Source: Streptomyces avermitilis MA-4680 = NBRC 14893
GTDB taxonomy: Bacteria; Actinomycetota; Actinomycetes; Streptomycetales; Streptomycetaceae
Direction: 5' to 3'
DNA: 64,000 nt
Assembly: GCF_000009765.2 (NCBI RefSeq)
Contig: NC_003155.5
Span: 1,240,001 to 1,304,000 of the forward strand
Below the pieces are notes generated by a model, which ran no database searches, was not told the origin of the DNA, and saw only the letters and a list, made by a program, of their open reading frames with translations. Shown one piece after another: positions 4,891 through 14,945 of this stretch. The position numbers were made by a program, and so were the translations under genes. Numbering within the stretch: the first letter of the stretch is position 1; each line of letters opens with the position of its first letter.

Positions 4891-5675
4891 CTAGATGCCT
4901 ATGCCGAGCGGCAGCGACGGCCCATGAACCGCAAGGGCGAGGCCGACGTCCCGGTGCAGGCCGGTCACGTGGGCGAGCCGTCCTTGAACGGCGGCTTCGT
5001 CGACTACGACCTCGCCCCGCGCGAATACGAGTTGTCCCTCACCCAGACCGTGCTGCGCGTACACACCCGGGTCGCGGATCTCTACAACGAGCCGATGAAC
5101 CAGACCGAGCAGCAACTCCGCCTGACCATCGAGGAGATCCGCGAGCGCCAGGAGTGGGAGCTCCTCAACAACCGCGAATTCGGGCTGCTGCACAACGCCG
5201 ACTACGGCCAGCGCATCAGCACGTTCACCGGCCCGCCCACTCCGGACGATCTCGACGAGCTGCTCTGCATGCGCCGCAAGACCCGGCTCTTCCTCGCCCA
5301 CCCGAAGGCCATCGCGGCCTTCTTCCGGCAGTGCAACCGGCGCGGCCTGGTGCCCGGCACCGCGAACATCGACGGGCACGAGCTGCCCGCCGGCGCGGCG
5401 TCCCGTTGCTCCCCTGCGGCAAGATCCCGGTCACCCCGCAGCACACCAGCAGCATCATCGCGCTGCGCACCGGGGAGGCCGACCAAGGCGTCATCGGCCT
5501 CTATCAGACCGGCATCCCGGAGGAGTACCAGCCCGGTCTGAACGTGCGGTTCATGGGCATCGACACCGCCGCGATCATCCGCTACCTCGTCACCGCCCAC
5601 TTCTCGCTGGCCATCCTCGTCCCGGACGCGGCGGGGATCCTGGAAAACGTACAGATCGGCCGGACCGCCGAATGA
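4891..5675 (+). pseudogene. Family 2B encapsulin shell protein, 3' fragment (shell domain), frameshifted
   Basis: This is the HK97-fold shell-domain half of the encapsulin begun at the left edge. The first in-frame codons after CTAG read [20 protein letters not shown]. Next come the family-typical [52 protein letters not shown] and [12 protein letters not shown]. Near 5391 the frame changes: GCC GGC GCG replaces the expected GCC TGG CGC, so one base (the T of a Trp codon) appears lost. The remainder, [20 protein letters not shown] to [12 protein letters not shown], is in the next frame and ends at TGA 5673-5675, 4 bp before the synthase ATG. In intact systems the cargo is 2-MIB synthase. This copy cannot make a shell as sequenced. 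Confidence 0.9.
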
Positions 5676-5679
5676 CGGG

Positions 5680-6412
5680 ATGGAGCACCGAATGAGCGCG
5701 TCACCGCTTCCCGGTACCTCGTTCGCGCCGCCGGGACCGCACGACATCGCCGGCACCGTGCGGGCCCGGCGTGGCGGGGCGATCCCCGGGCTCAGGTATC
5801 GGCCGGCGGTCCCCGCCGATCCCGCGAAGGTCGCGGAGACCGATCGCAGGCTGGAGGCATGGGCCCGCCGGCTCGACGTGTTCCCCGAGGCGTGGTTCGG
5901 GGATTTCGCGGGGTTCCAGTTCGGCCGGGCCGTGGTGCTCCAGCACCCGGGTGCCGCGGACGTGGAGCGCCTCACCGTCGCCGGCAAACTGCTGCTCGCC
6001 GAGAACATCGTCGACGACTGCTACTGCGAGGACCGGGGTGGTTCACCGCGCGGTCTCGGCGGCCGGCTGATCACGGCCCAGTCCGCGATCGACCCCTACC
6101 ACGGCACTCCCGAGGCGGAGGAGCAGTGGCGGCACGGCATGCAGGCCGACGGGCCGCTGCGCTCGTACCACTGGGCCGTCAAGGACTACGCCACCCTCGC
6201 CACGCCCAGCCAGACGGACCGCCTCGTCCACGACATCGCCCGGCTGCACCTGGGGTACCTCGCCGAGGCGGCCTGGGCGGAGACACGCCATGTGCCGCGG
6301 GTGTGGGAGTACCTGGTGATGCGGCAGTTCAACAACTTCCGTCCCTGTCTGTCCATCGTCGAGGTGGCATGCCACCAACACCCACCGCTACCACCTGCCG
6401 AACTACTGGTAA
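5680..6412 (+). pseudogene. 2-methylisoborneol synthase with a large internal deletion
   Basis: A class I terpene cyclase that converts 2-methyl-GPP to 2-methylisoborneol. The N-terminal part is recognisable, including the first metal motif DDCYCED within AENIVDDCYCEDRGGSPRGL and the block VWEYLVMRQFNNFRPCLSIV. Immediately after SIVE the sequence jumps, in a different frame, to WHATNTHRYHLPNYW and TAA (6365-6412), which is the extreme C-terminus of this family. From the family's usual length (about 440 residues), some 120-130 residues are missing, including the NSE (ND..S..KE) magnesium triad. The frame upstream of the junction otherwise runs on into the methyltransferase gene. Starts are ATG 5680 or ATG 5692. 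Loss of the second metal site makes the enzyme non-functional. Confidence 0.92.
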
Positions 6413-6454
6413 CCACTACTGACAGTACGTCAAATGCACTGCGAGGAGCCACTG

Positions 6455-7330
6455 TTGACCACCGCCCCCGACGCCGTCACGGCAGCACCGGTACCGACCC
6501 AGTCCACGTACCAGTCCCGCGTCGCGGACTACTGGAACGCCGAGGAGAACCCGGTCAACCTCGAACTCGGCAAGATCGACGATCTGTACCACCACCACTA
6601 CGGGGTCGGGGCCGTCGACTACTCCGTGCTCGACGAGCCCGACCCCTCGCGGCGCCACGAGAGGATCACCGCCGAGCTGCACCGACTGGAACACGCCCAG
6701 GCCGAACTGCTGGCCGGCCACCTCAGCCCCCTCTCCCCCGCCGACCGCGTCTTCGACGCCGGCTGCGGTCGCGGCGGCGGCAGCGTCGTGGCGCACCTGC
6801 GGTACGGCTGCCACGCCGACGGCGTCACGATCTCCGCCAAGCAGGCCGACTTCGCCAACGAACAGGCCCGCAAGCGGGACATCGGCGACAAGGTGCGCTA
6901 CCACCACCGCAACATGCTCGACACGGGCCTGCCGACCGGGGCGTTCGCGGCCTCGTGGAACAACGAATCCACCATGTACGTCGAGCTGGAGCTGCTGTTC
7001 GCCGAACATGCCAGGCTGCTGCGTCGCGGCGGACGCTGTGCGGTGATCATCGGGTGCTACAACGACACCTACGGGAGGGCCTCACGCGAAGTGTCCCTCA
7101 TCAACGCCCACTACATCTGCGACATCCATCCACGGTCGGCATACTTCCGGGCCATGGCCCGCAACCGGCTGGTCCCCGTGCACGTCGAGGATCTCACCGG
7201 AGCCGCGCTGTCCTACTGGGAGCTGCGCAAGCGGTCCGACCGGCTGGCCACCGGCATCGAGGACTCGTTCCGGACCGCGTACAAGAACGGCAGCTTCCAG
7301 TACCTGCTGATCGTGGCCGACCGCGTCTGA
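6455..7330 (+). CDS. Geranyl diphosphate 2-C-methyltransferase
   Basis: The SAM-dependent enzyme that methylates GPP at C2, the first committed step to 2-methylisoborneol. The SAM loop is DAGCGRGGGSVVAH. Other family blocks are YHHHYGVGAVD near the N-terminus, ASWNNESTMYVELELLF, INAHYICDIHPR, LSYWELRKRS and the C-terminal GSFQYLLIVADRV. About 291 residues matches the family. TTG 6455 is chosen because GAGGAG lies 7 bases upstream; an in-frame ATG at 6434 has no ribosome-binding site. It is the last gene of the encapsulin-synthase-methyltransferase operon and the only one still intact, so its product would have no cyclase to feed. Confidence 0.88.
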   Translation: MTTAPDAVTAAPVPTQSTYQSRVADYWNAEENPVNLELGKIDDLYHHHYGVGAVDYSVLDEPDPSRRHERITAELHRLEHAQAELLAGHLSPLSPADRVFDAGCGRGGGSVVAHLRYGCHADGVTISAKQADFANEQARKRDIGDKVRYHHRNMLDTGLPTGAFAASWNNESTMYVELELLFAEHARLLRRGGRCAVIIGCYNDTYGRASREVSLINAHYICDIHPRSAYFRAMARNRLVPVHVEDLTGAALSYWELRKRSDRLATGIEDSFRTAYKNGSFQYLLIVADRV

Positions 7331-7420: not shown

Positions 7421-10234
7421 TCACGGAGTGGCCAACAGCGACTCCAAGGCCACCGCGGTATCCGGATGACGGCCGATCAGTTGCCCGCCCGCCGGGCCGG
7501 GATCGGCTGTCTGCCACGTACCGTCGCAGCCCAGCAGGCTCGCCACCGCGTCGCACGTCGCGGGGTGGGCGGCGAGCAGCGCGACGTTGCGGCCCTCGCC
7601 CGCGCGCCCGCCCGGGCGCGCGGTGTCGGGCAACGGCTGGGCCCGCCACGGCGGCACCCACGCGTCCAGCTCCCCCAGCCGGCCGGGGAAGATCCGCCCG
7701 GCTTCACGGATCAGGAGCGGGGCGAGCTCCGCGCCGTTGGAGCGCAGGGTGCTGATGAGGGTGGGCAGCCACGGCAGCAGCACCGGGTCCGGCAGGCGTC
7801 CGAACGCGTTCGACACTGCCTCCACGACGAGGTCGGCCAGCCCCGGCACCGGTTCCAGCGCGTGCACGAATCCGCTGAGGTAACGCGGATAGGCAGGCAC
7901 CACCATGGGGTTGTCCAGCAGTTCGTCGCAGCGTGTGCGAAGGTCCGCGCGGGAGAGATGTCCGAGCTGTACCTGAGCCGCCCACAGCAGCGCCACCTTC
8001 GACGGCTCCTGCGGATGCGACTGCGCGACGGACAGCTCCAGCTGGGTTCGGTCGCAGCCCAGCGACAGCGCCAGGCTCTCCATGCCGAACAGGAATCCCA
8101 GCATCGCCGCGACCTGGCGGACGGTGGCGTCGTCGTCGGTGAACGCCGTCGGCAGCAGGGTGCAGTAGTGCGCGTATCCGGTCTTGACGAAGGACTCGAT
8201 CCACGGTGGCAGCACCGGCTCGCTGGTGCGGTAGTACGCCAGCAGCCGCCGCACCCGGCGCAGCACCTCCGGTGCGCCGTCGACGCTGCGTTCGGCCGAC
8301 AGCACCTCGAGGGCGCGGGTGCCCAGCTCGTCGGTGAGGCGGCGGCTGCGCAGGTGCAGCGTCGCGTCCTCGATGGCCTCCAGGACGGTCGCCGTGGTGG
8401 CGTGCGGCCCGTACGCCGTGCGGCGCAGGCGCTGCTCCAGGACCTGCTCGATGCTGACACCCTCGTAGCCGAGCTCGATGAGCGCGCGCTGGTGGGTGCC
8501 CAGCGCCAGGTCCCACGACTCCTGGATCGGCCGCTCGCCGAGCCGCCGCTCACCCATGATGGGCCGGGCCGTGCCCTGCGGCATCAGGTACCGCAGCATC
8601 CACAGCACGTCGGAGCACTGCTCCAGTTGCGGCTGGGAGGATATGTCCAGCAACGCCCGCTGGACGCCGCGCTGCTGCAACTTCAGGTTCAGCGGCGCGA
8701 GCCGGTCGTGCACGTCGCGGGCCAGTGGTGGCAGCGCGTCGTAACCGACCTGGCCGATCCGGTCGCCGCCCATCATGATGTCGACGAGGCGGCGCACATC
8801 GCGCCGGCCCGGCACGGTGTCCTTCTCGATGCAGGTGACCGCCGCGTCCTGGAAGTCGTACGGCGTGGGTCTGGCCCGATCGCGCATCCCGGCCAGCAGG
8901 ATGGACGTCTCGAACACCGCGATGGCGTCAGCGGTGGAGGCGAGATAGCCGTTGCGGCGCGCGGCGCGCACGATCTCCACCGACCAGCCGAGCAGTTCGG
9001 TCTCGTCGAGCCGGTCCAGGACGGGCGGTCGCCGCAGGAAGCCGGTCAGCTTGTCCGAGTTCGCGGCCGCCGGCACGGGGGCGGCCGCGACCGCGGTCTT
9101 CTTGGCCTTCGACGTCTTCGCGCCCGCCTGTCCCGCCAGGCGGAAGGGCTCCACGCGCGTGCGCCTGACGTTCTTCGCCCACACCGTCGCGGCGATCGAC
9201 ACCGAGCCGGAGGCGAGGCCGAACTGCGTCTCGATCGCCGCGTGGCTGGACGGAATGAGGCCGTGCTGCCACCTGGTGGCACTGCGCGGACCGATCTCGA
9301 AGGTGTCGGTGCCGTGGACGCCGAACTCCGCGACGCGACTGGCCGCGTGGAAGGCACCGCAGACGTAAAGGCAGTCCGCGGCATCGGTGCCGGTCGCGGC
9401 CAGGTGTTCGCGCATCCTGGTCCACATGTAGCGTTCGCGGTCCTCGTCCACGCGCACCCGGTGGGGGTCGCCGGGGGCAAGGCGTCTGAAGAGGCTGCCG
9501 ATCAGGAGCATGACCTGGCGATAGGTGTCGTGATCGCTGTCGCCGAGGGGCAGTTCGACGTACTGGTGCCACCACTCCGACCAGTGCCGCACCCTGCCGT
9601 GGTGCAGCAGGTGTTCCTCCAGTTCGGCGAAGCGCGGCCGCAGGTCGCCGATCTCCACGCCGACCGCGTCGCCGTGCAGTGCGGCCTCCTCCTCGACGGG
9701 CGGTGCGTCCGACGCCCCTGGATCGGCGCCGGCCTCGGCGGAGTGCGTCCCGCGCGAGTCCCACTGGAAGACATGGTCCGAGGAACGGTCGACGAGGACC
9801 AGTTCGACGCCCGGCGTGTCCAGTGCGTAGGCGATTGCCTGGTACTCGGCCGAGGCCTCGGTGATCGGTGCGACCACCGACAGCGGGGACCAGTCGGCCG
9901 GGAAGCCGTCGACCTCGGTCGCGAACGCCTGCACCGCCACCGGCAGTCGGCAGTTGCGCAGTTCGGTCAGCAGGGGCGCCATGTCCTCGCACAACTCCAG
10001 GTACACGACCTTCGGCCGCTTCTCCCGCAGGCGGCGTGCCATCGCGAGCGCCGAGGCGGGCGAGTGGTGGCAGACGGGGAAGATCTCCAGTGGCTCGCGC
10101 ACCGCGCGGTCGACGTCGTCGACGATGCCGAGGAGGATGCCCTCCAGGGCGTCGGGCCCGTCGGAGAACGTCGCGGCGGCCTCCTGCAACTGTCCGCGCA
10201 GCTCTTCGAAGGTCTGCCCGTGCGTGCCGCTCAT
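7421..10234 (-). CDS. DUF5682 family protein
   Basis: A 937-residue soluble protein and the last gene of a five-gene operon. The N-terminal 300 residues show a pattern resembling TraB/TIKI-type metal-dependent folds: VCHHSPASALAMARRL (His 56-57), VVYLELCEDM (Glu 80, 83) and CLYVCGAFHAASRV (His 296). A low-complexity patch near residues 330-350 (AAVAAAPVPAAANS) separates this from a roughly 550-residue helical C-terminal region. The ATG at 10234 overlaps the upstream AAA ATPase stop (ATGA). DUF5682 genes are recurrently found beside MoxR-type ATPases and vWA proteins. Substrate and role are unknown; the fold comparison is my inference from motifs. Confidence 0.75.
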   Translation of the reverse strand: MSGTHGQTFEELRGQLQEAAATFSDGPDALEGILLGIVDDVDRAVREPLEIFPVCHHSPASALAMARRLREKRPKVVYLELCEDMAPLLTELRNCRLPVAVQAFATEVDGFPADWSPLSVVAPITEASAEYQAIAYALDTPGVELVLVDRSSDHVFQWDSRGTHSAEAGADPGASDAPPVEEEAALHGDAVGVEIGDLRPRFAELEEHLLHHGRVRHWSEWWHQYVELPLGDSDHDTYRQVMLLIGSLFRRLAPGDPHRVRVDEDRERYMWTRMREHLAATGTDAADCLYVCGAFHAASRVAEFGVHGTDTFEIGPRSATRWQHGLIPSSHAAIETQFGLASGSVSIAATVWAKNVRRTRVEPFRLAGQAGAKTSKAKKTAVAAAPVPAAANSDKLTGFLRRPPVLDRLDETELLGWSVEIVRAARRNGYLASTADAIAVFETSILLAGMRDRARPTPYDFQDAAVTCIEKDTVPGRRDVRRLVDIMMGGDRIGQVGYDALPPLARDVHDRLAPLNLKLQQRGVQRALLDISSQPQLEQCSDVLWMLRYLMPQGTARPIMGERRLGERPIQESWDLALGTHQRALIELGYEGVSIEQVLEQRLRRTAYGPHATTATVLEAIEDATLHLRSRRLTDELGTRALEVLSAERSVDGAPEVLRRVRRLLAYYRTSEPVLPPWIESFVKTGYAHYCTLLPTAFTDDDATVRQVAAMLGFLFGMESLALSLGCDRTQLELSVAQSHPQEPSKVALLWAAQVQLGHLSRADLRTRCDELLDNPMVVPAYPRYLSGFVHALEPVPGLADLVVEAVSNAFGRLPDPVLLPWLPTLISTLRSNGAELAPLLIREAGRIFPGRLGELDAWVPPWRAQPLPDTARPGGRAGEGRNVALLAAHPATCDAVASLLGCDGTWQTADPGPAGGQLIGRHPDTAVALESLLATP

Positions 10235-11343
10235 GAGAGGGTGGCGATCGCGTCGCGGCCGCCCTCCAGGAACTCCGGCCAGGATCCGCCCTCTTCCTTG
10301 CCGCGCGGCTCGACGACGCCGTGCAGGTACTTGTTGAGGATGGCCAGGTCCTCGGGCTCGCGCCGGGCCAGTGACCCGACGAGCGAGGAGGCCAGCGTGC
10401 GGGCGGTCAGGGCGCGCTCGCCGAAGAAGTTGCTGTGCAGGATCGCGTCCTCGAGGACGCCGATCTGTTCGGCGGTGGACAGCGCGGACTCCAGCTTCTC
10501 GTCGTCGCTGCCGGCCGCGGCCGCGGAGGCACGCAGGTCGGCGAAGCTCTGCAACAGCACGTCGAGCAGCGTCGGCGGCACGTCCAGCTCGATCTGGTGG
10601 CGCCGGAGCAGTTCCTCGGTGCGGAAGCGGACGATCTCCGCCTCGCTCTTCCTGTTCGTCATCACCGGGATGCGTACGAAGTTGAAGCGGCGCTTGAGTG
10701 CCGAGGACAGGTCATTGACGCCCCGGTCACGGCTGTTGGCCGTGGCGATGATCGAGAAGCCGGGCTGGGCGAAGACGACGCTGTCGCTGTCCAGTTCGGG
10801 AACCGAGACGTATTTCTCGGACAGGATCGAGATCAGCGCGTCCTGAACGTCACTGGTGGAACGGGTGAGTTCCTCGAACCGGCCGATCGCGCCGGTCTCC
10901 ATCGCCGTCATGATCGGCGAGGGGATCATCGACTCCCGCGACTGGCCCTTGGCGATGACCATGGACACGTTCCAGGAGTATTTGATGTGATCCTCGGTGG
11001 TGCCGGCCGTGCCCTGCACGACCAGCGTGGAGTTGCGGCAGATCGCGGCGGACAACAGCTCGGCCAGCCAGCTCTTGCCGGTGCCGGGGTCGCCGATGAG
11101 CAGCAGTCCACGGTCGGAGGCCAGCGTGACGATGGAGCGCTCGACGAAACTGCGGTCGCCGAACCACTTCTGCGAGATCTCCCGCTCCAGGCCGTCGGAG
11201 CGCTCGGAGCCCAGGATGAACAGGCGGACCATCTTCGGGGACAGGCGCCAGGAGAAGGGCTTGGGGTTGTCGTCGATGGACTCCAGCCAGTCCAGTTCCT
11301 CGGCGTACTTGATCTCGGCGGGGGCGCGCAACAGGTCGGACAT
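10231..11343 (-). CDS. MoxR-type AAA+ ATPase
   Basis: A 370-residue AAA+ ATPase with Walker A GDPGTGKS (about residues 84-91), an unusual Walker B ending FEE rather than DE (AIGRFEELT, about 153-160), sensor 1 region IIATANSRDRG and an arginine-finger-like SSALKRRFNF. MoxR ATPases usually work with a vWA protein as a remodelling or metal-insertion chaperone, and here a vWA gene ends 12 bases upstream. ATG 11343 is preferred because AAAGG lies 7 bases upstream; GTG 11346 is also possible. The stop overlaps the DUF5682 start. What it remodels is unknown, with the SWIM and DUF5682 products the best candidate partners. Confidence 0.85.
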   Translation of the reverse strand: MSDLLRAPAEIKYAEELDWLESIDDNPKPFSWRLSPKMVRLFILGSERSDGLEREISQKWFGDRSFVERSIVTLASDRGLLLIGDPGTGKSWLAELLSAAICRNSTLVVQGTAGTTEDHIKYSWNVSMVIAKGQSRESMIPSPIMTAMETGAIGRFEELTRSTSDVQDALISILSEKYVSVPELDSDSVVFAQPGFSIIATANSRDRGVNDLSSALKRRFNFVRIPVMTNRKSEAEIVRFRTEELLRRHQIELDVPPTLLDVLLQSFADLRASAAAAGSDDEKLESALSTAEQIGVLEDAILHSNFFGERALTARTLASSLVGSLARREPEDLAILNKYLHGVVEPRGKEEGGSWPEFLEGGRDAIATLS

Positions 11344-11355
11344 CACAGGGCCTTT

Positions 11356-12792
11356 CTAAGCGAGGAACGTCTTGAGTTCGTGGACGAGCTTGCGGATGTG
11401 GCCGGAGACCACCGGCGTGCCAAGGGCCTTGAAGCGCTCCCGGAACCAGGGGTTGACCTCCTGGCGACCGGAGCTGGTCACCGAGCCGACCGGGATGAAC
11501 TTCACCCCGGAGCGGTGGACCGCCTCGATGCCTTCGAACAGCGGCTGGGAGCGGTCGAACTCATAGAAGTCCGAGATCCACACCATCACGGTGCTCCGCG
11601 GTTCGGTGATCTTCGGGCGGGCCATGGCCATGGCGACGGGTCCGTCGTTGCCGCCCCCGAGGTTGGTGCGCAGCAGCATCTCGAACGGGTCGCTCACCCA
11701 AGGGGTCAGGTCGATGGCACGGGTGTCGTACGCGATCAGGTGGACGTCCACCTTCGGCAGCCCGGCGAAGATCGACGCCAGGATGGTGCAGTTCACCATC
11801 GAGTCGACCATCGAGCCCGACTGGTCCACGACGACGATCAGCCGTTGGGGCGTCGTCTTGCGGGCGGTGTGCCGGTAGTAGAGGCGGTCGACGTACAGCC
11901 GCTCCTCCTCCGGGCTCCAGTTGGTGAGGTTCTTCCAGATCGTGCGATCGAGGTCCAGGTTGCGGAAGGTCCGCTTGGGTGGGACGGAGCGGTCCAGCGC
12001 GCCGGCCGTGGCCTGCGCCACCTGGGTGCGCAGCACCTCGGCCACCTCGTCGACGAAGCGGCGGATCAGAGCCTTGGCATTGGCCAGCGCGACGCCGGAC
12101 AGATTGTTCTTGTCGCGCAGCAGCTGTTCGATCAGCGACATGCTCGGGGTCAGCTGTGCGGCGAGGGTGGGATCGGCGAGGACCTCACGCAAGTGCATCC
12201 GCTTCACGAGATCGGCCTCGATGGCACCGAGTTCCGGGCCGATCGCGGGAATCAGACGGCCGAGGTCGGGCGTCGCACCGCGACCGCCGGTGCCGGCCGG
12301 ACCGGCGCCTCGCCCCGCGCGCCCTCCTCCCGGGCGTCCCCCGCGCAGTTCGCCCGGCCGGCAGCCGAGCGCTCGCTCCAGCCACCCCGCGTCGGACTGC
12401 CAGCGCGACAGCTGTCCGGCGGTGACGGTGCCGGATCCGGCGGCGAAGACGTTGAGCAGCACCTTCGACACCAGGGCCGCACGCCGTACTTCGGCGGCCC
12501 GGTCGCGTCCGTCGTCGTCGGGCTCGGGCTCGGGCACCATCAGACCGTCGAATTCGGAGGCCAGCTCCGGGTGGCGCTGCACGATCGAGTCGACGGAGGT
12601 CCCCGGGTCCAACAGCCCGGACGGCAGACCGATGTCCTCGACGACAGCGAGGCTCGCCGACTCCAGCGTCGCCTGTTCTTCGTGGTCGAAGAGACGGGCG
12701 AGGAGCCGCCAGTAGAGAACCTGGCGACGGTTCTCGTCCGAGTCCGCCTCCGCGTTCTGCTCGGGCGTGTGTTCGGTCGTCCGCTCGGTCAT
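11356..12792 (-). CDS. vWA domain protein, partner of the MoxR-type ATPase
   Basis: A 478-residue protein whose C-terminal third is a von Willebrand A domain with an intact MIDAS: VVVDQSGSMVDS (Asp about 323), the Thr region RTNLGGGNDGP and WISDFYEF. The N-terminal 300 residues are helical, with a Gly/Pro/Arg-rich linker near residues 150-175 (GGRPGGGRAGRGAGPAG). MoxR-vWA pairs, such as RavA-ViaA, act as chaperone modules. The start codon overlaps the preceding gene's stop (ATGA), and the stop is followed closely by the ATPase gene. The context implies a stoichiometric complex made from one mRNA. Confidence 0.85.
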   Translation of the reverse strand: MTERTTEHTPEQNAEADSDENRRQVLYWRLLARLFDHEEQATLESASLAVVEDIGLPSGLLDPGTSVDSIVQRHPELASEFDGLMVPEPEPDDDGRDRAAEVRRAALVSKVLLNVFAAGSGTVTAGQLSRWQSDAGWLERALGCRPGELRGGRPGGGRAGRGAGPAGTGGRGATPDLGRLIPAIGPELGAIEADLVKRMHLREVLADPTLAAQLTPSMSLIEQLLRDKNNLSGVALANAKALIRRFVDEVAEVLRTQVAQATAGALDRSVPPKRTFRNLDLDRTIWKNLTNWSPEEERLYVDRLYYRHTARKTTPQRLIVVVDQSGSMVDSMVNCTILASIFAGLPKVDVHLIAYDTRAIDLTPWVSDPFEMLLRTNLGGGNDGPVAMAMARPKITEPRSTVMVWISDFYEFDRSQPLFEGIEAVHRSGVKFIPVGSVTSSGRQEVNPWFRERFKALGTPVVSGHIRKLVHELKTFLA

Positions 12793-14189
12793 TTCCTCAG
12801 CAGCCTTCCGGCGCGCTCACGCAACACCGCCACAGCCTCGGTGGCGGCCTTCTCGGCCTTGGCGCCCGTCTTGTCGGCCGTGCCGCCGGCCCATGCTCCG
12901 GCGTGGACCGCGACAGCCTTCTTCCGCACGGTCGTCTCGACGGCGAGCGGTTGGACGCTGAACGCCCCGGTGTCCCAGCGCAGCAGGCCGATGCACGCGT
13001 TCGACAGCGCGACGGCCTCGGGGGTCAGCGGGCCGGTGGTCGGGACCCGGTCGGCCTCGACGGCGAGTCCGTGTCCGTGTCCGTGTCCGGCCGTGTTGAA
13101 CGTCAGTACGTCGCCGTCCTTGTGGACGGCGTAGCCCTCCAGGAACACCGGTACGGCGATGCCCGCCGGATGCCGGTGAAGCGGCGCGGTGTGTGCGGCG
13201 GTCGCGGTGGGCAGGACGACGCGGGCGGTGGCGAAGGGGTCGGCGGGCTCACCGGGGCGCCCTTGTTCATCACTCCAGATCAGGTCGCCTTCGGCGGTGA
13301 TCGGCATGGCGTGGAGCTCCATCGAACGGCCTTCGCCTGCGGCGGCCAGGAGCGACATGTGCGGGCGGAGCAGCTGCCAGACACCGGCTCCGACGACCGT
13401 GTCCGGCTTCGGCACCGAGACACTGGCGCGTACCAGGCGGGGCGCGCTGCCGTCCGCGGGCTCGAACACGGCGTGGACCTGGGCCTGCGCGGCGGTCGCG
13501 TGTTCGTGCACGTCGACACCGAGGGGCAGCAGGCGGCCGGTGGCGGGAGCGGTCGTGGGCGCGTCGGCGGCGCCGGGCACCGTCAGGAGCATCGCACGCG
13601 ACCACACATCTCCCCAGCGGCGTACCGGCATTCGCTTGAGGGCCGCCCCGGGGCAGGAGGCGGCGAGTTCGGCGGCGAAGCCGTCGAGGAGCGTCGCCAG
13701 GCGGCGCAGGGAGGGGTCCGGGAGCATCGACGAGACGACCTGCGCCGATGCCGACACCACCTCGTGATCGATGCCCTGCCATCCGGCGCGCGCCAGATCG
13801 CAGAGCCAGGAGCGGGCGGCGGCCAGCAGGTTCACCATGTGCCGCTCGCCGGGCGTCGAGGCCGTCGCCTCACCGCGGGTGCGACCGATCACCTCGTCGA
13901 CGCGGGTCATGAGGGCGTCGTGGACGGAGCCGAGCAGTGCCGTGCGGGCGGCGGCCAGGGCGACGAAGTGGTCCTCGCTCGCGGCTCCGGCCGCCGCCTT
14001 GTCGGCGGCCTCCGCGACCCTGGAGGCCAGCGGTGTCCCCGCGACGGCGCAGGCGAGTTGGTTCAGGTCGGCGGCCTGGGCGGGCTGGGGCCGGAGCAGG
14101 CCGCCGACGAGCGTCCGGTCGAAGCCATCGACCGCGGCCAGGGCTTCGTCGAGCCCGGCCATGGGTTCGGTGAGCAGGTCGGTGCGCAT
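12789..14189 (-). CDS. Hypothetical protein of the MoxR-vWA-SWIM operon
   Basis: A 466-residue soluble protein that I do not recognise. It begins MRTDLLTEPMAGLDEALAAV. The N-terminal half looks mainly helical (ACAVAGTPLASRVAEAADKA, VDEVIGRTRGEA). The C-terminal half looks strand-rich, with a His/Gly stretch (TAGHGHGHGLAVEADRV, about residue 365) encoded by six-base tandem repeats at 13067-13086. ATG 14189 overlaps the SWIM gene stop as TGATG, and its own stop overlaps the vWA start as ATGA, so it is locked into the operon. A DUF5691-like helical subunit often occupies this position in related operons, but the resemblance here is only positional. Confidence 0.7.
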   Translation of the reverse strand: MRTDLLTEPMAGLDEALAAVDGFDRTLVGGLLRPQPAQAADLNQLACAVAGTPLASRVAEAADKAAAGAASEDHFVALAAARTALLGSVHDALMTRVDEVIGRTRGEATASTPGERHMVNLLAAARSWLCDLARAGWQGIDHEVVSASAQVVSSMLPDPSLRRLATLLDGFAAELAASCPGAALKRMPVRRWGDVWSRAMLLTVPGAADAPTTAPATGRLLPLGVDVHEHATAAQAQVHAVFEPADGSAPRLVRASVSVPKPDTVVGAGVWQLLRPHMSLLAAAGEGRSMELHAMPITAEGDLIWSDEQGRPGEPADPFATARVVLPTATAAHTAPLHRHPAGIAVPVFLEGYAVHKDGDVLTFNTAGHGHGHGLAVEADRVPTTGPLTPEAVALSNACIGLLRWDTGAFSVQPLAVETTVRKKAVAVHAGAWAGGTADKTGAKAEKAATEAVAVLRERAGRLLRK

Positions 14190-14668
14190 CACGCCACCGC
14201 CCTGGTCGGCGGGAACCACTGCATCTCGGGCAACGGCGCGGTGGTCGGGGCGAGTTCCAGGTAGGCCAGGTGGCGCAGGAACCGGCTGAAGACCCAAGCG
14301 GCGGCCTTGGCGTCCCCCTGTGGCGGGTTGGTTCCGCTCATCTCCGCGGCGATGCCCTGTGCGCTCCGCTCCTCGTCCGCGATGTCCACACGCAGGTAGC
14401 GGACGACGCGCTCGACGCCGTACTGCAGCACCGCCTCGTTGATCAGGGCCTTGATGTGGTTGCAGAACGAGCCCCGAGCGCCGCCGCAGGGACGGTTGTT
14501 GTTGGTGCTGCACGCGAACGCGTAGCTGCCGGCCGCGACCGATGAGACGTAGACCCGCTCGATGTCCGATCCGCTGGACACCACGCCTTGCAGGCGTCCG
14601 TCGGCAAGTTCGACGAACGGGACCTTCGCGAGCTTGCGCGGTCGCGCGGGCGGTATCACGCGCGCCAT
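14189..14668 (-). CDS. SWIM-type zinc-finger protein
   Basis: A 159-residue protein, first gene of the operon. It carries a SWIM-like metal cluster: FACSTNNNRPCGGARGSFCNHIKAL, giving C...C...C.H ligands at about residues 55-78. SWIM fingers bind DNA or proteins and often accompany MoxR-vWA modules. ATG 14668 is preceded by GGGAGAA at a good distance. The stop overlaps the next gene. Upstream, 14669-14945 is a 277-bp gap to the divergent kinase gene and must hold the operon promoter; I see no recognisable operator there. It could act as the client-recognition or nucleic-acid-binding part of the complex. Confidence 0.75.
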   Translation of the reverse strand: MARVIPPARPRKLAKVPFVELADGRLQGVVSSGSDIERVYVSSVAAGSYAFACSTNNNRPCGGARGSFCNHIKALINEAVLQYGVERVVRYLRVDIADEERSAQGIAAEMSGTNPPQGDAKAAAWVFSRFLRHLAYLELAPTTAPLPEMQWFPPTRAVA

Positions 14669-14945
14669 GCTGGACTTCTCCCAATCCGACAACGCACCAT
14701 CTCCTTTGCACCAAGGGGCTCTCGCGCCAGAGCGGCGAGACACGGCTGAACATAGTGGCGACCACTGACAACGCCGATCACAGGCGGAGTTCACCCCCGT
14801 CGAGCGTGCTGTGCGACAGGGGTACGAACCGGCCGCCCCGACGACCGGGAGCCCGGACCCCGGTCCGGACGCCGCGCCCGCGACGCCAAGCTCCGCACCC
14901 CGATAATCCGTTGCCGCCCACGCTCGCCCGAGCGATCATCGCGGG

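Follow-up and report, generated by a model that had tools for sequence, protein, structure and literature searches.

The five genes at positions 7421–14692 of the window, the whole stretch of 64,000 nucleotides of Streptomyces avermitilis DNA that was analysed, follow one another head to tail on the minus strand in the order SWIM, HEL, vWA, MoxR and DUF5682. As far as we searched, this operon appears to be a distinct, mobile subtype of the YehL-type MoxR-vWA system that is confined to actinomycetes. According to our main reading, to which we assign a probability of roughly 0.5, the products of this mobile and actinomycete-specific subtype work as an ATP-driven assembly around a DUF5682 hydrolase, with the SWIM and HEL proteins responsible for targeting. 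The following features were assigned.

14701–14707, minus strand: probable ribosome-binding site AAAGGAG, read from the sequence, upstream of the TTG start of gene 1.
14189–14692, minus strand: gene 1, predicted SWIM-like zinc-binding protein with the motif C-x7-C-x7-C-x-H, N-terminal half of the protein in the YehQ position; TTG start at 14692.
12789–14189, minus strand: gene 2 (HEL), helical N-terminal domain and beta-rich C-terminal domain with possible tandem OB folds (structural model and Foldseek).
11356–12792, minus strand: gene 3, CoxE-type vWA protein, YehP-like, MIDAS Thr replaced by Asn (Pfam VWA_CoxE, 109 bits).
10231–11346, minus strand: gene 4, MoxR AAA+ ATPase of the YehL subfamily (AAA_5, 128 bits).
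7421–10234, minus strand: gene 5, DUF5682 protein, YehM-like, with a TraB/TIKI-like N-terminal domain at about residues 45–360 and C-terminal alpha-helical repeats (PF18934, 97.9 bits compared with a cut-off of 26).

The original prediction of a five-gene operon with overlapping or nearly touching junctions was borne out. All open reading frames are present, and the junctions in gene order are TGATG, ATGA, a gap of 9–12 bp (set by the MoxR start chosen) and ATGA. The antisense strand also carries long open reading frames across the operon. A tblastn comparison with 80 loci revealed an identical order and strand of the five proteins in every full-length orthologous locus. Judged from these sequences, the minus-strand coding of all five genes is certain, because all five proteins, their order and their strand are kept. 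The core gene set was found in 73 of 74 wide loci, and no flanking family occurred in more than 10 of them. The orthologues were about 92–97% identical to the window protein for MoxR, 77–89% for DUF5682, 77–90% for vWA, 75–90% for SWIM and 69–80% for HEL. MoxR stands out among the subunits by its much higher conservation, which also extends across orders. The strict co-inheritance, together with the fusion of DUF5682 and vWA in a sister class (see below), makes it plausible that the products form one complex, as had been proposed.

The distribution of the operon was patchy. HEL was detected in 8 of 396 actinobacterial genomes (two of these hits being marginal) and in 4 of the 12 sampled genomes of the genus Streptomyces; the canonical class, which is represented by a second operon of the same genome, was more frequent in the sample than the window class. 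The five-gene order is also retained in two divergent copies (52–54% identity) that fall outside the main group, and a window-type operon was found on five large records which are filed as plasmids. In the phylogenetic tree, which was rooted by midpoint only, the copies from Pseudonocardiales are nested inside rows of Streptomycetaceae, and this position suggests a transfer of the operon between orders. Two transposase/integrase-type genes (DDE_5 and rve integrase core) lie at 358–2469, within a few kb of the operon, as would fit an accessory region. A seeming remnant of a 2-methylisoborneol cluster lies at 4924–7330 on the plus strand and converges towards the 3' end of the operon. It comprises a type 2A encapsulin gene (4924–5541) continued in another frame (5154–5675), a terpene synthase gene (5680–6422) whose Pfam match stops short, and a methyltransferase gene (6434–7330, plus strand) which looks intact.

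The start of gene 1 was revised. The ATG at 14668 that had been chosen originally was replaced by the TTG at 14692, because nearly all orthologues carry TTG (or GTG) at this codon and almost none has an ATG at 14668. The GGAG of the upstream AAAGGAG is also present in nearly all orthologues compared. The four ligands of the zinc motif were invariant in 79 sequences. Gene 1 gave no match to the Pfam SWIM family (PF04434, CxCx(n)CxH). The spacing of the zinc motif and the missing Pfam match reduce the original label SWIM to SWIM-like. SWIM and HEL form one open reading frame with a linker in 14 of 78 loci and are split by TGATG in the other 64. The fused forms are scattered over several places in the tree, and the nearest relative of the window (locus L027, support 98) is one of them. 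The SWIM/HEL pair is one protein which was repeatedly split or joined. Consequently, the operon indeed contains five open reading frames but encodes four proteins, since SWIM and HEL are the halves of one.

HEL showed no Pfam, NCBIfam or PADLOC match. Its AlphaFold model is of low confidence (pLDDT 61). The top Foldseek matches of the beta half of this model were the OB-fold nucleic-acid binders HIN-200, LEF-3, RPA and SSB, with an E value of 3.5e-4 but an rmsd of 10 Å on a low-confidence model, and OB folds in the C-terminal half of HEL are only suggestive. The window SWIM/HEL protein and YehQ agree in zinc motif and operon position. Since hhalign comparisons of HEL and SWIM, whole and in halves, with YehQ and with the SWIM protein of the canonical copy were not significant, homology to YehQ is not claimed.

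The MoxR protein contains the Walker A motif GDPGTGKS, the Walker B motif RFEE, the sensor 1 motif ATAN and the Arg-finger region LKRRF. The Walker B sequence FEE, described originally as non-standard, is present but not special: the pattern R(F/V)EE(L/I/V)TR was observed in every YehL-type MoxR aligned (E. coli YehL and four other classes) and is the norm of the subfamily. A search with the single MoxR sequence against the PDB found nothing. A YehL-type MoxR with 42.6% identity to the window MoxR was also observed at 12876–13934 of MT835988.1, a short record from human faeces filed as 'Bacteriophage sp.'. The MIDAS of the window vWA protein reads DQSGSM...N...D. Its Thr position is occupied by Asn in the window copy and in 18 of 80 sequences, and by Thr in 62. 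The MIDAS had been called complete, and this is wrong for the window copy because of the Asn. In the NorQ/NorD system the vWA protein connects the ring to its client as an adaptor; its MIDAS contacts the client rather than the ring, and activation of the client requires the Thr of this motif (PMC9976466). Because of this requirement, the Asn in the window vWA may, by analogy, be of importance for client binding.

For DUF5682, 32 proteins of four classes were aligned, E. coli YehM among them; the identity between classes is about 20%. The residues H56, H57, P59, E80, E130, D149, R266, E267, M270, G293 and H296 were invariant. The original prediction had made its TraB/TIKI proposal dependent on conservation of the His and Glu residues across homologues; they proved to be family-wide invariants in all four classes. 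In the AlphaFold model (pLDDT 75) H56 and H57 directly follow the first strand (50–54), E80 is located near the end of the second strand (76–82), R266 lies in the helix 257–281 and H296 follows the strand 288–293; behind these elements lies a long stretch of helical repeats. In the TIKI superfamily the site consists of a His and a Glu, each placed behind one of two successive core strands, of a conserved basic residue close to them, which is a stated feature of the superfamily, and of a last His (PMC6254334). The order of the DUF5682 motifs on the model matches this arrangement, including the position of R266 before H296.

A profile of DUF5682 residues 40–366 exhibited remote similarity to the TraB family. 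Plasmid and E. coli TraB members served as templates because the TraB family was not found in the Streptomyces relatives. The comparison with TraB/GumN (8 sequences) gave P 9e-4, with PrgY added P 7.7e-5, and with three more PrgY relatives P 1.8e-3; the match probability was 15–62% and shifted with the template set. The alignment with TraB/PrgY is colinear over the whole domain and the motifs are paired. Like TraB, GumN and PrgY, DUF5682 has a GxxH-like first motif, a Glu after the second strand, an R(N/D/E) helix and a G-A-x-H last motif. It differs from them by CHH or RHH in place of GxxH and by its large helical C-terminal region. Unrelated families used as controls gave P values of 0.19–0.88, and P was 0.52 for the template in reverse. 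With permuted columns (60 templates) the score did not exceed 15.8, compared with 31–42 for the real TraB/PrgY match. The proposed TraB/TIKI-like motifs of DUF5682 gain support from the invariant residues and from this profile match. A profile comparison with erythromycin esterases (Ere) was negative, and a DUF5682 profile search against PDB sequences found nothing. Foldseek with the full-length model gave no TIKI, ChaN or Ere match and no match of any kind at E ≤ 0.001; the matches were helical repeats, by which the whole-model search was swamped. Because no TIKI protein was found by the fold search, membership of the N-terminal domain in the TraB/TIKI superfamily is graded as probable only, at about two in three.

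Four steps would make up the mechanism of our main reading. As expected from its family, MoxR would assemble into an ATP-driven hexameric ring. The vWA protein would dock on this ring and transmit its motion to a bound partner, as in NorQ/NorD. The standing partner would be DUF5682. Its N-terminal TraB/TIKI-type domain is a putative hydrolase, probably a peptidase, and the helical C-terminal region may serve as docking scaffold; a link between DUF5682 and vWA is supported by their natural fusion, which would also tell which subunits touch. In the fourth and weakest step the zinc motif and the possible OB folds of SWIM/HEL would direct the complex to a target, which may be a protein bound to nucleic acid. 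From the ring, vWA, DUF5682 and SWIM/HEL steps an ATP-controlled remodelling or cleavage of a specific intracellular target would follow. The narrower proposal, that DUF5682 is an intracellular TIKI/TraB-type peptidase gated through physical contact with the MoxR-vWA motor and directed to its target by the SWIM/OB protein, is tentative and the odds are against it. As far as could be found, an ATP-controlled TIKI protease machine of this kind has not been described in the literature. If true, it would explain the E. coli YehLMPQ proteins too. The His/Glu/Arg set and the TraB-like profile yield a concrete hypothesis, accessible to mutagenesis, for YehM and every protein related to it.

The main rival explanation, in itself unlikely, places the client outside the operon. 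MoxR and vWA would mature an enzyme encoded elsewhere or insert a cofactor into it, with DUF5682 as a non-catalytic TIKI-fold scaffold or a metal or haem carrier and the SWIM zinc motif as a structural module. ChaN is known to bind haem. The vWA protein of the operon is of the CoxE type, the MoxR-vWA pairs studied so far act on metalloenzymes or respiratory complexes (PMC3893208, PMC9976466), and the TIKI superfamily has members which lack the catalytic residues (PMT; PMC6254334). However, the neighbourhood of the operon contains no conserved gene for a client enzyme in the 74 loci, and the invariance of the His/Glu/Arg set over four classes is as expected of an active site.

A conflict function is the weaker alternative and seems quite improbable. 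Here the complex would sense an infection through nucleic-acid binding by SWIM/OB and use ATP to license DUF5682 as an effector with toxic or cleaving action. The patchy presence among the 12 sampled Streptomyces genomes, the variable sites, the nesting of Pseudonocardiales copies among Streptomycetaceae and the coexistence of several classes within one genome speak for such a role, and a conflict function has been proposed for other MoxR-vWA assemblies (PMC7159879). These ternary systems contain VMAP, iSTAND or a similar third component as well as variable effector domains, and are marked by the swapping of effectors (Kaur et al. 2020; PMC7159879). In contrast, no VMAP/iSTAND-type Pfam domain above cut-off was found in the operon, and the only change of architecture in 73 loci was the SWIM/HEL fusion, with neither effector replacement nor added genes. 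The PADLOC matches of the operon proteins were weak and limited to AAA+ and vWA domains; the best one was mad8 with 24.8 bits (AAA+ only). The 132 flanking proteins of 16 sampled loci gave only few, scattered PADLOC matches, mostly to general AAA/Clp proteins or single ones and counted without a matched control. The resemblance to a conflict or stress system seen in the original prediction is weak, for effectors are not swapped and the neighbouring genes cannot be clearly assigned to defence. Chance clustering of unrelated genes without joint function, for which no supporting point was found, is vanishingly improbable and was rejected, since it is contradicted by the overlapping junctions and by the strict five-gene order in every full-length locus, the loci sharing nothing else.

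The main reading, a mobile YehL-type subtype, places the operon among known systems, and the original suggestion of an undescribed system has to be dropped, as the same four kinds of protein are encoded by E. coli yehLMPQ and by a second operon of the same genome. NorQ/NorD and RavA/ViaA also combine a MoxR ring with a vWA partner (PMC9976466, PMC3893208). They differ from the window operon in having no DUF5682 or SWIM partner and in belonging to different MoxR subfamilies. YehL in turn is a recognised MoxR subfamily (PMC3893208). The adjacent genes yehL, yehM, yehP and yehQ of E. coli K-12 lie on one strand and encode AAA_5, DUF5682 (331 bits), VWA_CoxE and SWIM proteins, respectively. The window MoxR is 42% identical to YehL and the CoxE-type vWA protein 32% identical to YehP, the DUF5682 proteins belong to the same Pfam family, and both operons encode a protein with a SWIM motif. 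A literature search revealed no functional study of yehLMPQ and no paper naming DUF5682. The two operons differ in gene order (MoxR-DUF5682-vWA-SWIM in E. coli and SWIM-HEL-vWA-MoxR-DUF5682 in the window). Furthermore, the window DUF5682 is very divergent from YehM, with about 20% identity in the alignment and 98 compared with 331 Pfam bits, the window SWIM protein is split in two and has a longer zinc spacing, and an adjoining DUF4132 gene (yehI in E. coli) is absent.

The second copy in the same genome, at about 4.281–4.289 Mb (contig G000:C1, locus L007), is of the standard, canonical type. It shares MoxR (44% identity), DUF5682, vWA and SWIM with the window operon. Its genes are arranged divergently, as MoxR-DUF5682-vWA and SWIM plus a further downstream gene, which we take to be DUF5691; the window type has no such fifth partner. 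A third Streptomyces class (L110/L140) is close to the E. coli system. In a further class (L105–L109, L135–L139) DUF5682 and vWA constitute a single protein of about 1210–1340 amino acids, as observed in 5 of 5 Streptomyces loci. A DUF4132 gene, carrying the domain of E. coli yehI, adjoins both the L110/L140 class and the fusion class, whereas the window class lacks it. The L135–L139 loci also encode an uncharacterised protein of about 1670 amino acids without Pfam match besides the upstream DUF4132 protein. This class shares the MoxR, DUF5682 and vWA modules with the window operon and differs by the DUF5682-vWA fusion and the upstream DUF4132 gene; it may represent a more complex form of the same machinery, of which the mobile actinomycete subtype would offer a minimal, four-protein version to test.
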